Shown piece by piece: positions 1-9,587 of a stretch of DNA of 41,295 nucleotides. Made by a program: the position numbers and the translations under genes. This DNA comes from Flavobacteriaceae bacterium (GTDB taxonomy: Bacteria; Bacteroidota; Bacteroidia; Flavobacteriales; Flavobacteriaceae), in NCBI GenBank assembly GCA_015494075.1, contig WGBX01000060.1, positions 1-41,295 of the forward strand. Direction: 5' to 3'. Under the pieces are notes generated by a model. The model did no database searches, was not told the origin of the DNA, and worked only from the letters and a program-made list of their open reading frames with translations. The number at the start of each line of letters is the position of its first letter. Position 1 is the stretch's first letter.

Positions 1-42
1 ACCAAAATAACTTGTTATATGAAATAATCATTGTATTTTAAA

Positions 43-116
43 ATCAAAAAAGGAACATCACCTTTAGGGCTGGAAACTCTTGGTGACGTTCCCTATGAAA
101 GTTAAACTATGTTTAA
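43..116 (-). ncRNA. Candidate small RNA or terminated leader RNA
   Basis: Read on the minus strand, a transcript from the promoter at 122-129 would start near 116. It would first form a 5' hairpin from the palindrome at 101-117 and then a stem GGAACGTCACC / GGTGATGTTCC (arms at 92-82 and 62-52) with a 19-nt loop, followed at once by TTTTTTGATTTT. This is a convincing intrinsic terminator. The stem is complete only on the minus strand, where the odd pair is G-U; on the plus strand it would be A-C, and no T tract follows. The product would be about 70 nt with no open reading frame. It is either a free small RNA or an attenuated leader of a minus-strand gene beyond position 1. No known RNA family was recognised. 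Confidence 0.5.
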
Positions 117-117
117 C
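101..117. promoter_or_regulatory. Palindromic operator-like site 1
   Basis: GTTAAACTATGTTTAAC is a perfect 7+7 palindrome around a 3-nt centre. It covers the predicted start of the minus-strand transcript, so a bound repressor would block initiation. A second near-identical copy lies at 140-156, with 39 bp between centres. The binding protein is unknown; TetR- or MarR-like regulators commonly use sites of this size. Confidence 0.5.
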
Positions 118-121
118 GGTG

Positions 122-129
122 CAAAGTTA
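122..129 (-). promoter_or_regulatory. Minus-strand -7 promoter element
   Basis: On the minus strand this reads TAACTTTG, a perfect match to the Bacteroidota -7 consensus TAnnTTTG. It lies between two palindromes and upstream of the candidate terminated RNA. No clear -33 TTG was found at the usual distance, which could mean an activator-dependent or repressed promoter. Confidence 0.5.
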
Positions 130-139
130 CACATTTTTA

Positions 140-156
140 GTTAAACATAGTTTGAG
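140..156. promoter_or_regulatory. Palindromic operator-like site 2
   Basis: GTTAAACATAGTTTGAG matches the reverse complement of site 1 in its first 14 bases and differs only at the outer end. It lies over the -20 to -33 region of the minus-strand promoter. It is outside the predicted transcript, so its conservation points to DNA binding rather than RNA folding. Confidence 0.45.
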
Positions 157-231
157 GCACATAACTTCTTGTGATGAGGGAAATGAAACGGCTCGTCAAA
201 TAAAATATGTTTAATTAAAAATTTACGAATT

Positions 232-438
232 ATGAAAAAAATAGTTTTATTGTTAATTTTAGCTTTTGGTTTTGTTAATTTAACCAGTGCAACACAAGAA
301 AAGAAAGATGTTAAACAATGTTACGAAGGCAATGTTTGTGCAGATATCGCTGATGCCATTACAGCAAATCATTGTGGGTATTCTGATTGCGATGATGATT
401 GGTGGGTTTATGCATATAACGAATGTGTTAACGCTTAA
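232..438 (+). CDS. Small secreted Cys-containing protein
   Basis: This 68-residue protein has a clear Sec signal peptide: KK, then a hydrophobic stretch at about 4-16, with likely cleavage after the SA at 19-20. The mature chain is about 48 residues, acidic near its C-terminal part (D52, D54-D56), with two Trp (57-58) and five Cys at 30, 36, 48, 53 and 65. The odd number leaves one Cys unpaired, or free for dimerisation or for a partner. I do not recognise a family. The ATG is preceded by an A/T-rich leader without Shine-Dalgarno sequence, as is usual in this phylum. It lies 48 nt upstream of a GLPGLI protein and its receptor-like partner, separated from them by a hairpin (450-470), so the three may be partly co-transcribed. 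Function unknown. Confidence 0.7.
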   Translation: MKKIVLLLILAFGFVNLTSATQEKKDVKQCYEGNVCADIADAITANHCGYSDCDDDWWVYAYNECVNA

Positions 439-449
439 TAATAATTTTT

Positions 450-470
450 GCAGCCCTTAATAAGGGCTGC
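450..470. terminator. Hairpin, partial terminator
   Basis: A perfect 10-bp stem, GCAGCCCTTA / TAAGGGCTGC, with a single-nucleotide gap lies right after the small secreted protein. On the plus strand it is followed by ATTAAAAAAT rather than a T run, so it may attenuate or stabilise the mRNA end rather than fully terminate. On the minus strand the following tract is mostly A. Confidence 0.45.
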
Positions 471-486
471 ATTAAAAAATATAAAA

Positions 487-1203
487 ATGAAACAAATAAT
501 TATAATATTCACTTACTTTTTCGTCCATTTTGTTTATTCACAACAAAATGCGATTGTAGAATATGAATATCTCTACAATCCCAATTTGGGTGATAAACCC
601 ACTAATGAAATCATGCAGAGAGCCGCTTCAATTAATGATAAAGCAGCCGAATATGCCAAGCAATACCGGTATATTTTAAAGTTTAATCCTAACGAAAGTT
701 ACTACTACATAGATGCCGGTATGAAACCGGACGATTTAGAAGACCCTATGGCTTATCATTTGTCAAAAATGATGATAGGGCATGGAATTTTTTATCAAAA
801 CGCACCAAAACGTTATACTTTAAACCAAAAAGAAAGCATGCATCAATTGTATTTGGTTAAGGATACTATTAAAAATGATTGGACCATTAGTTATGAAAAG
901 AAAATGATTGGCAGTTATAAATGTTATAAAGCAACCAAAAAATGTCAATGTGGGCAAGATATTGTCGCTTGGTTTACACCGGAAATACCGGTACCGTTTG
1001 GTCCCGCCGGTTATGGTGGCGCCCCCGGACTGATTTTACAATTAACCTTTTTTAAACACACCTTGCGTTTAAAAAAAATAAAATTGCTCAAAAAACCAAT
1101 TTCCATTACGCCACCCGACAAAGGCGAACCTATTACAAAGGTAAAACTAGAAAACCGGCAATGGAACAGACGAATGGAGTTAATGGAGCGTAGAAGGCAT
1201 TAA
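487..1203 (+). CDS. GLPGLI-family secreted protein
   Basis: This 238-residue protein belongs to the GLPGLI family (TIGR01200), a Bacteroidota group of unknown biochemical role whose genes often sit beside TonB-dependent receptors. The naming motif appears here as GAPGLI at residues 178-183, after a Pro/Gly-rich approach (VPFGPAGYG), so one Leu of the motif is Ala. The N-terminus is a signal peptide (MKQIIIIFTYFFVHFVYSQ, cleavage near residue 18), which fixes the start at the ATG at 487; the frame is open upstream to a TTG at 448, but that would put the stem of the hairpin inside the gene. It ends 13 nt before the receptor-like gene, so the two are almost certainly one operon. It is probably periplasmic or outer-membrane associated. 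Confidence 0.85.
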   Translation: MKQIIIIFTYFFVHFVYSQQNAIVEYEYLYNPNLGDKPTNEIMQRAASINDKAAEYAKQYRYILKFNPNESYYYIDAGMKPDDLEDPMAYHLSKMMIGHGIFYQNAPKRYTLNQKESMHQLYLVKDTIKNDWTISYEKKMIGSYKCYKATKKCQCGQDIVAWFTPEIPVPFGPAGYGGAPGLILQLTFFKHTLRLKKIKLLKKPISITPPDKGEPITKVKLENRQWNRRMELMERRRH

Positions 1204-1216
1204 ATCTTTATTAATT

Positions 1217-3871
1217 TTGAAAATAGCCGTTTCCTTTTTTTTGTTTTGGTTTATTTCTCATATTTTTGCCCAAGAAATTGTAGTGCAAGGACGGATAACG
1301 GATTCCTTGCATCAAGCTCTGCCCTACGCCAATATTATGGCGGAAGCCGGACAACAACAAGCACCTATCTTTACCATGACGGACGAAAACGGCAAATACA
1401 AACTGCGTTTGCTAAAAAAATATACTTACAAGGTCATAGTGCTCTATATGGGCTATCAACCGGTAAGTTTTAAGGTAGATAGTTTATCCGAAGGTTTTAT
1501 AAAAAACATTGTTTTGCAACCGGCTGAAAATCAACTTAATGAAGTGGTTATTAAGGCAGATATACCTGTTAAAGTCAGCCAAGATACCATTACCTATAAA
1601 ACCGACCGGTTTAAAACCGGAGAGGAACGAAAACTCAAAGACGTGCTTAAAAAATTGCCCGGAATGGAAGTGGATAAAAACGGTAACGTCAGCGTAATGG
1701 GTAAAAAAGTCAGTAAAGTGTTGGTCGAAGGCAAGCCGTTTTTCGGGGGAGGTACCCAATTGGCAGTCGATAATATTCCGGCTGATGCGGTTGATAAGGT
1801 CGTCGCTATAGATGATTATAACAGTGTCAGCTTTATGAAAGGGCTGACCGATGAGCAAAAGATGATCATCAATATCAAACTCAAAGAAGGTAAAAAACGT
1901 TTTGTCTTTGGGGATATGGAAGCCGGTGGCGGAACCCAACAGAGCTATCTCGGTAAAGCCAATTTGTTTTATTACAGTCCTAAAACCAATGTGAGTTTTA
2001 TCGGCAATCTCAATAATACCGGTGAAGTTCCCATGAATTTTTCCGATTTTATGCGATTTGAAGGCGGTATTGCCGATTTGGGCAAACTCAAATCATCTTT
2101 TCAAAATTTCCGTTGGATAATGGAAATGATAGGTGCGGAAAACTTTTTACAAAAACAAAATAAATTTGGCGCGCTGCAATGGCAACAAGATTTTGGTAAT
2201 AAAATAGAATTTAGCACCTATGCCATTTTTCTCAATCAAAAAATAGAGACACAACAAATTGACGTCAATCAATATTTGGGCACGCAAACTTTTATCGAAA
2301 ACAGAAAAACAACCCAAAATCAAAAAGATATAAACGGCTTGGTGAAAATGCATTTTCGATACAAAGCAAGTGTTTTAAATTATTTTGATATGGAACTACT
2401 CGGTAATATCAAAGATGCCGATTTCAACAGTTTAAAAACTTCGACAACAGAACAGGCGGTGCAAAATATTATTGAAAATCAACAAGATAAAGCCTATCAT
2501 TGGACGAATAATTTGGCTTGGCACCGGAAAATTAACCGGAAAAATACTATCCGTTTTTTACAAAATATGACATTTGACAAAAATGAGCCCTTAGACGATT
2601 GGCAAACCAATCAACCGGTTTTGTCACAATTGTTGACTTTGCAACCGGCAGGTATTTATAAAATAAGGCAAAACCAACGAAACGATAACAAAGCATGGAA
2701 TGTAGAACTAAAACATTACTGGTTGATTAATAACAATCATCATCTTTATACGAGCATAGGCAACCATTTGAGTTTTCAAGATTTTTATACACAGAGCTAT
2801 CAGACTTTGGACGATGCGTCCAACTATGATTTAAGCACTTCGGGATTTCATAATGATTTACAATTACATTTAAACGATTTGTTTGGTGGCATGCAATACA
2901 AGTTGAGATTTAACGGATTTATAGTCAAAGCCGGTTTGTTTGCCCATCGTTATTCGTGGCAATTTGAAGGTGATTATCAAAAATATAAAGTCAAACAAAC
3001 ACTCTTGCCAGAATTTTCCCTTCATAAAAAAATCGGCTTGAAACAAAAGTTAAACTTTACCTATCGTTTAAAAGCCAATATTCCCGAGGTTTCTAAATAT
3101 TTGAAATTTTATTATTTAACCGGATTTAACACGGTAGCCAAAGGCAATCCGGAATTAAGTTATGAACAAGCGCATCATTTTAATCTGTCGTTTTCGCATT
3201 TTAGTATGGCTAACAACCTGAATTATTATTTACGTTTGCAATACCAACGCAAAGAAAGCAGTATAAAAAACAAAATTGTATATGCGGGTATTGATTATTA
3301 TACGAGTCCTGTTTTGACACATTTTCCCGACCAATCAATGAACGCAAGCTTGTATGTTAAAAAAAGTTTTAAAAAGTTTTATGCCAGTGTCAAACCGTAT
3401 TGGCAAGTGAATAATTATCATCAAAATATTCAAAATCAATGGAAAAATATCCAAAACATCACGCAAAGTTATCAATTTGAAGCTGGTACTTATTTTAAAA
3501 AATATCCTAATATTGACATTGGTTTGCTACAAAGGATAAATCGACATTTAATAGATGAACAAAGTCATCGTTATATACAAAATATCCCGTCATTAAGTTT
3601 GGCTTATGATTATAAAAGTTTTAATTTTAAGACCGACTATCAATATATACACACCAAAGATTTATTGATTCAACGTAGTGCTTACCATCTGGCAAGTATT
3701 AGTGTGATATATCAAAAAGAAAACAGTCCTTGGGGATTGGAATTACAAGGGCAAAACTTATTTGACAATCGGGTTGTCAGATCTTACCACCAATCAGAAT
3801 TTATTATTTCCGACACGGATATTTTAGTACAACCGCGAATTGTGATGTTAAACTTGCATTATAAATTATAA
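1217..3871 (+). CDS. TonB-receptor-like outer-membrane beta-barrel protein
   Basis: This 884-residue protein shows, in order, a signal peptide (1-18, ending FAQ), a carboxypeptidase-regulatory-like beta-sandwich domain (about 20-105, with GRITDS and the DENGKY turn), a plug-like domain (about 105-205, with LNEVVIKAD, LKDVLKKLPG and VLVEGKPFFGGG), and a long barrel rich in alternating aromatic residues that ends in LNLHYKL, a typical last beta strand. Such proteins form outer-membrane channels, often powered by TonB, and several are used for peptide or polymer uptake. No TonB box was evident. The start codon is TTG: the first in-frame ATG comes about 40 residues later and would delete the signal peptide. 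It follows the GLPGLI gene by 13 nt. The substrate is unknown; the family assignment is secure. Confidence 0.88.
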   Translation: MKIAVSFFLFWFISHIFAQEIVVQGRITDSLHQALPYANIMAEAGQQQAPIFTMTDENGKYKLRLLKKYTYKVIVLYMGYQPVSFKVDSLSEGFIKNIVLQPAENQLNEVVIKADIPVKVSQDTITYKTDRFKTGEERKLKDVLKKLPGMEVDKNGNVSVMGKKVSKVLVEGKPFFGGGTQLAVDNIPADAVDKVVAIDDYNSVSFMKGLTDEQKMIINIKLKEGKKRFVFGDMEAGGGTQQSYLGKANLFYYSPKTNVSFIGNLNNTGEVPMNFSDFMRFEGGIADLGKLKSSFQNFRWIMEMIGAENFLQKQNKFGALQWQQDFGNKIEFSTYAIFLNQKIETQQIDVNQYLGTQTFIENRKTTQNQKDINGLVKMHFRYKASVLNYFDMELLGNIKDADFNSLKTSTTEQAVQNIIENQQDKAYHWTNNLAWHRKINRKNTIRFLQNMTFDKNEPLDDWQTNQPVLSQLLTLQPAGIYKIRQNQRNDNKAWNVELKHYWLINNNHHLYTSIGNHLSFQDFYTQSYQTLDDASNYDLSTSGFHNDLQLHLNDLFGGMQYKLRFNGFIVKAGLFAHRYSWQFEGDYQKYKVKQTLLPEFSLHKKIGLKQKLNFTYRLKANIPEVSKYLKFYYLTGFNTVAKGNPELSYEQAHHFNLSFSHFSMANNLNYYLRLQYQRKESSIKNKIVYAGIDYYTSPVLTHFPDQSMNASLYVKKSFKKFYASVKPYWQVNNYHQNIQNQWKNIQNITQSYQFEAGTYFKKYPNIDIGLLQRINRHLIDEQSHRYIQNIPSLSLAYDYKSFNFKTDYQYIHTKDLLIQRSAYHLASISVIYQKENSPWGLELQGQNLFDNRVVRSYHQSEFIISDTDILVQPRIVMLNLHYKL

Positions 3872-9569: not shown

Positions 9570-9587
9570 ACTTATTTTTGACCTTTT

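Follow-up and report, generated by a model that had tools for sequence, protein, structure and literature searches.

A predicted sense/antisense RNA module at the leader of a secreted-peptide operon from an uncultured member of the Flavobacteriales

In Bacteroidota, outer-membrane operons are commonly accompanied by antisense RNAs. The left end of the window (the whole 41,295-nt stretch of DNA analyzed here, from an uncultured Flavobacteriales bacterium) holds a predicted tiny RNA opposite the control region of a secreted-peptide operon, which raises the question of what this RNA is and which gene it concerns. A sequence-only reading of positions 43–129 had proposed that the minus strand carries a separate transcription unit, with promoter and terminator of its own, either a new small RNA or the terminated leader of a gene to the left. 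The minus-strand unit and the new small RNA were supported; the leader of a left-hand gene was not. We consider it very likely that the predicted antisense RNA is real, and it probably lies antisense to the 5′ leader that precedes the plus-strand peptide/GLPGLI/TonB operon rather than being a leader of the left gene. Overall, a sense/antisense RNA control module is the best explanation of the locus and, in our judgment, a likely one.

The predicted small RNA and the operon opposite it

The minus-strand box read at 122–129 is an exact match to TAnnTTTG (Table 1). In Flavobacterium psychrophilum this box is reported at −12 to −5 (PMC9723704), and by that rule the start of the small RNA (sRNA) was put 5 nt after the −7 box. 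A fold as good as that of the predicted transcript (z −5.8) occurred in none of 200 shuffles. Fold comparison confirmed that the terminator stem pairs fully only as minus-strand RNA, where 11 of 11 pairs form, one of them G-U; as plus-strand RNA the same stem (52–62/82–92) has one A-C mismatch and is not followed by a U tract, again as first described. The fold of 36–115 had a z-score of −3.5 as minus RNA versus −1.6 as plus RNA. The predicted sRNA thus combines a stable hairpin and U tract on one strand with a TAnnTTTG −7 box. The box alone is close to chance, with 83 in the window against 71 expected and at least 83 in 8 of 100 shuffles; a box followed by a same-strand terminator of at least 10 pairs was found three times in the 41-kb window and in none of 40 dinucleotide shuffles. 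The other sites in the window with a box and a strong terminator within about 90 nt are at 9573 (+) and 32102 (+). A simple terminator scanner did not list the 52–92 hairpin, because its 19-nt loop exceeds the scanner's limit of 8. The interval 43–129 had been described as free of ORFs; no ORF of at least 60 aa overlaps it, and a 2-codon ORF (19–27, plus strand) lies just to its left.

Table 1. Features of the RNA module and the adjoining operon in the window
Feature	Position	Strand	Basis
−7 promoter box of antisense sRNA	122–129	minus	exact TAnnTTTG, TAACTTTG
Predicted antisense sRNA, 72 nt	start 117, end 46	minus	−12 to −5 rule; fold z −5.8; two-hairpin fold
sRNA 5′ hairpin, GUUAAAC AUA GUUUAAC	101–117	minus	fold prediction
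Terminator hairpin	52–92; arms 52–62 and 82–92, loop 63–81	minus	fold; minus-only wobbles
Terminator U6 tract	46–51 (A6 on plus)	minus	sequence
Mini-uORF ATG AAA TAA	19–27	plus	ORF of ≤4 codons conserved in leader
Long stem of leader	103–154; arms 103–117 and 140–154	plus	fold, wobbles, covariation
H-type pseudoknot candidate	164–197; S1 164–168/180–184, S2 173–178/192–197	plus	pattern
Alternative pairing P4	133–154 with 201–222 (pre-start region)	plus	complementarity
68-aa peptide with signal-peptide-like start, first gene	232–438	plus	ORF; no family above cut-off
GLPGLI family protein	487–1203	plus	TIGR01200, 141.7 bits (cut-off 50)
Outer-membrane protein, CarboxypepD_reg-like domain, TonB-receptor-like	1217–3871	plus	PF13715, 53.2 bits

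The operon under the leader extends from 232 to 3871 on the plus strand. The only matches of its first gene, to models of metallophores and Cys-rich lipoproteins, stayed below cut-off, and its third gene matched Plug (14.1 bits, cut-off 23.9) and SusC (44.5 bits, cut-off 368) below the family cut-offs. Position 1 of the window is the end of contig C60, so that the gene to the left is not visible. No Rfam family matched the window at its gathering score. One of the five sub-threshold matches in 1–1000 was to BTnc231 (49–244, minus strand; 14.8 bits versus 80.4, E 3.6), which is at chance level. Models of defence genes gave nothing of note; a single match, to Cas11e, was weak (E 0.0064). The inverted repeats had also brought to mind integron attC sites or invertible promoters, which were dropped, since the arm order and the short spacing differ.

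Copies of the module in the genus

In a DNA search of 60 relatives, 58 gave a match at E ≤ 1, nearly all of it short AT-rich noise; strong DNA matches to 40–230 were confined to the same genus. The copies fall into sequence types A to D, and two covariance models were built, R1 from 14 type A copies and R2 from 5 type B copies. R1 matched 9 of 13 genus genomes at E ≤ 0.01 and R2 likewise matched 9 of 13, adding G007, which places the module in 10 of the 13 (one of them, G006, weakly, at E 0.0042). Among 149 genomes of the family, searched with both models under Infernal's stricter filters, two genus members matched and none of the 147 others did. R2, built from type B alone, recovered every one of the 14 type A copies in the genus (E 8e-11 to 2e-5) as well as types C and D, and matched the window at E 3e-8; since it finds every type A copy, types A and B are homologous.

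We analyzed 23 copies: 15 of type A (window, L028, three in L029, L030, L031, two in L032, two in L033, L034, L035, L037 and L046), five of type B (L065, L068, L072, L073 and L075), one of type C (L059), one of type D (L081) and one degenerate copy, A2 (L064). The G006 copy (L060/L038, E 0.0042), in which the first hairpin was not found, was left out. A search of genome contigs returned 12 stretches, of which L044 and L051 had no R1 match and were taken as chance, and L046 matched; viral contigs gave no match to the hairpin pattern. L046 (JALVXC010000159.1) belongs to a metagenome-assembled genome (MAG) labelled Campylobacteraceae and carries the module at 125 bits; the contig is probably misbinned, and the module that of a Flavobacteriales member. 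A common insert splits the leader pseudoknot region in L035 (from ~165) and L046 (from ~2600). On a contig of genome G001 (L029, 1–10060), three module copies stand in tandem with one cassette each. Searches of an open-licence library turned up no description of the module and, for GLPGLI, a single paper with a different subject.

In most type A cassettes the leader is followed by a signal-peptide-bearing peptide of ~70–90 aa, a GLPGLI gene and a CarboxypepD_reg/outer-membrane protein gene; in the remaining cassettes a larger secreted protein or lipoprotein-like ORF follows. Apart from a common signal-like start, eight of the nine first-gene peptides compared share 19–29% identity and the syntenic one 60%, and several contain Cys. 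A perfect hairpin (GCAGCCCTT/AAGGGCTGC) lies at 450–470 (+), between the peptide and GLPGLI genes, and a strong hairpin occupies that intergenic place in 8 of 9 cassettes, with unrelated letters except in two close relatives. The 450–470 hairpin may set a high peptide-to-receptor ratio.

The predicted minus RNA is 65–77 nt long in all 23 copies. Its homologous TAnnTTTG box is exact in 20 and has one mismatch in L037, L064 and L081; differences between copies fall mainly on the free positions nn. A 5′ hairpin that begins at nt 1 or 2, followed by the terminator hairpin, is predicted in 22 of 23 copies, the exception being L064, and this fold is kept across the four types while the letters change. 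Before the terminator hairpin, a run of at least five A occurs in the same 22 copies (in L073 one G separates it from the stem), always, from type A to type D, at the side corresponding to the 3′ end of the minus RNA. The terminator stem itself reads quite differently among types A, B/D and C, with 5′ arms by type of GGAACATCACC, GGGAAAGCAA and ACCACTC, each with a matching 3′ arm. Compensatory change in this stem had been named beforehand as a test, and what was found is a stem swapped wholesale between sequence types with its arms still matching. The terminator loop (63–81 in the window) has 11 sequences among the 15 type A copies, whose stem arms hardly vary, and four among the five type A copies of one genome.

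The leader, missed in the first reading, is itself a conserved predicted RNA. Twenty copies have sufficient DNA upstream to show whether a plus-strand TAnnTTTG box lies to the left of the terminator, and 18 of them have one, L072 and L081 being the two without; in the window, L033_69 and L034 the contig stops too soon. An ORF of at most four codons was found in 19 of 23 copies, with 4.0 expected from mononucleotide shuffles. In 18 of these it precedes the terminator stem by 29–36 nt, and its stop codon may be TAA, TAG or TGA; one of the four misses, L033_69, has ATGAGATAG, which the 62-nt limit of the search excluded. The long stem, whose loop contains the sRNA promoter box, is remade with other letters in type B (12 pairs) and type D. 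Within type A, 97.9% of its cells are paired, and 3 of 500 shuffles had a covariation score as high, a result that may be inflated by the relatedness of the copies; the RNAalifold covariation term by itself was only −0.6. The S1/S2 pattern of the candidate pseudoknot fits 17 of 23 copies, and two of the six misses are interrupted by the insert. S1 is nearly invariant, with one C-A mismatch in the window, and S2 is GAYGAG/CUCRUC in type A and ACCGG/CCGGU in type B.

The alternative pairing P4 was scored in 21 of the 23 copies, L035 and L046 having no start positions. In the window it comprises 19 Watson-Crick pairs, two G-U pairs and one mismatch, and none of 200 shuffles gave a pairing as strong. 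It spans 13–23 positions in 19 of 21 copies (10 in L072 and 6 in L073) with 0–2 mismatches, and ends 0–13 nt from the start codon, L073 excepted. P4 exceeded all 200 shuffles in 13 of 21 copies and was equalled by 3–40 of 200 in the other eight. In each of types A to D, the pre-start region of the same type is a better partner for the loop than those of other types; the loop of the A2 copy (L064) pairs better with type A pre-start regions than with its own. Covariation of P4 within type A did not go beyond shuffles (148/500). The support for this predicted pairing lies between types.

Strand-specific pairing and competing explanations

Where one strand can form a G-U pair, the other has an A-C mismatch, and wobbles can therefore tell which strand folds. 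Across the 20 copies of types A and B, the terminator stem contains 18 wobble cells that pair only as minus RNA and none of the opposite kind, and the long stem contains 11 that pair only as plus RNA and none of the opposite kind; these cells count copies rather than events, and correspond to about three independent changes in the terminator stem and about four in the long stem. Other mismatches numbered one and four, respectively. In the 17 of 23 copies that fit the pseudoknot pattern, S2 has six plus-only wobbles, no minus-only wobble and five other mismatches, and S1 has one A-C cell (in the window) and one other mismatch. P4 wobbles favored the plus strand 33 to 0, a count biased by a scoring that prefers G-U to A-C. 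This asymmetry indicates that both predicted RNAs are under separate, strand-specific base-pairing constraint.

One alternative is that the plus leader alone is functional, as a structured cis-regulator of riboswitch-like or protein-bound type, and that the minus box is a by-product of the conserved loop. The plus-strand wobbles of the long stem, S2 and P4 agree with such a regulator, as does a long 5′ leader before secreted-protein genes. However, the wobbles of the terminator stem are minus-only, an A run beside the hairpin and a hairpin placed at the predicted +1 are meaningful only for a minus RNA, and Rfam offered no match, and we regard this explanation as unlikely.

The near-perfect palindrome at 101–117, present in all four types A to D, could also suggest that a dimeric transcription factor binds at 101–117 and 140–156, around the minus promoter, with RNA pairing as a side effect. 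A fixed operator would not require the letters of a palindrome to change together with those of a distant partner arm, and the wobbles are strand-specific; operator sites are accordingly a rather improbable explanation.

A type I toxin-antitoxin pair, in which the antisense RNA would silence a toxic small peptide, is brought to mind by the hydrophobic start of the 68-aa peptide and the antisense RNA to its leader, and antisense pairs with small ORFs in B. thetaiotaomicron are reported to resemble type I systems (PMC7366714). The genes downstream of the leader nevertheless vary: a small peptide comes next in most type A copies, but larger secreted proteins do in others, and the range extends to proteins of 392 aa (with a secretion-tail domain) and 468 aa and to complete GLPGLI/outer-membrane operons. 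A toxin-antitoxin pair thus appears very improbable.

The order of promoter and terminator would fit the attenuator or riboswitch leader of a left-hand gene that the sequence-only reading had allowed for. This reading is already contradicted, and we give it hardly any credence: in the nine type A/A2 copies with a visible left gene, that gene is co-directional with the plus operon in seven (including the syntenic G001 copy, L029 6230, where it is on the plus strand) and divergent in two, it differs between copies, and 18 of 20 copies have a plus promoter box in between. A chance likeness arising in AT-rich intergenic sequence, although compatible with the near-chance frequency of the box by itself, is already contradicted by the relatives and has a negligible probability, given the absence of box-plus-terminator pairs from the 40 shuffles and the architecture kept in 22 of 23 copies.

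A possible switch and its relation to known antisense RNAs

On the sense/antisense explanation, the two RNAs probably form a genetic switch between them. A plus-strand promoter, which in the window would lie just beyond the left contig end and is seen in relatives, would make a leader of ~200–240 nt for the secreted-peptide/GLPGLI/outer-membrane operon. Another promoter, situated in the long-stem loop, would make the 65–77-nt antisense RNA, which would run the opposite way and end at its own terminator near the 5′ part of the leader. We infer that the antisense RNA represses. It would pair with the leader from the region of the terminator hairpin to the left arm of the long stem, and the freed right arm would clamp the stretch directly before the start codon and so block translation; when no antisense RNA is present, the long stem would occupy the right arm and leave the start region open. 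The mini-uORF and the pseudoknot would probably tune the switch. That the leader is controlled by the antisense RNA in some manner seems likely to us; the specific route, from arm capture to a clamp on the start region, is put forward tentatively.

Fold predictions agree with this route in part. In free leaders the long stem was predicted to have on average 11.3 pairs in type A and 12.5 in type B, against 4.5 and 4.9 for P4. When the stretch covered by the antisense RNA was blocked, P4 rose from 4.5 to 14.5 pairs (13 type A copies) and from 4.9 to 14.6 (5 type B copies), and the long stem fell from 11–13 pairs to fewer than one. The folds were nested, without pseudoknots, and the loss of the long stem follows by construction, so that the informative part is the takeover by P4. 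P4 was predicted to dominate even without the antisense RNA in types C and D, as well as in L029_197 and L065, and pairing of the start region rose little on blocking (0.52 to 0.61 in type A). Because these exceptions form P4 when free and the start-region change is small, the switch is a hypothesis that fits type A best. In types B and D the loop does not overlap the right arm, so that there the long stem could form alongside P4. A broader and more speculative picture, possible but doubtful, is that of a multi-copy chromosomal module in which each copy has its own antisense RNA, capture of one arm flips the other onto the start region, fast-changing terminator loops give paralogs partly private addresses, and translation is linked to the switch through the mini-uORF.

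Among known systems, the nearest are the DonS-like cis-antisense RNAs of Bacteroides, and the module may, by analogy, work like them. These RNAs are described as 78–128 nt long and encoded on the opposite strand at the 5′ side of SusC-type operons, and DonS as repressing its operon (PMC7366714, PMC11697453); 32 DonS-like RNAs are reported in B. thetaiotaomicron (PMC10994844), and the mechanism of DonS repression is called unknown in a 2025 paper (PMC11697453). Like the DonS-like RNAs of polysaccharide utilization loci (PULs), the RNA predicted here is short and opposite the 5′ side of an operon with an outer-membrane gene. It differs in that its first gene encodes either a small secreted peptide or some other surface protein, the outer-membrane protein further downstream does not reach the SusC family cut-off, and a switch-like fold is conserved in the leader. 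With a strict pattern, the module architecture was found upstream of none of 30 SusC-type genes (30 of 56 matches, in one Bacteroides-like genome). Membership in the DonS-like group is not claimed, because the SusC feature was looked for and not found.

In CopA/CopT of plasmid R1 and Inc RNA of ColIb-P9, the antisense RNA targets a structured leader that contains a mini-ORF and pairs over a long range beside the start site. By this comparison the module would work like plasmid replication-control antisense RNAs, although its copies, unlike CopA/CopT and Inc RNA, adjoin chromosomal-type surface-protein genes rather than replication genes. Within the same bacterial order, F. psychrophilum is reported to have Rfp small RNAs, antisense RNAs and unassigned 5′ elements without an Rfam match (PMC9723704). 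The module differs from these in being found in a single genus among the 149 family genomes.

The module offers a concrete, structure-level hypothesis that can be tested by a few point changes in a leader reporter. In addition, wobble asymmetry across paralogs can tell which strand of an overlapping pair carries which fold.
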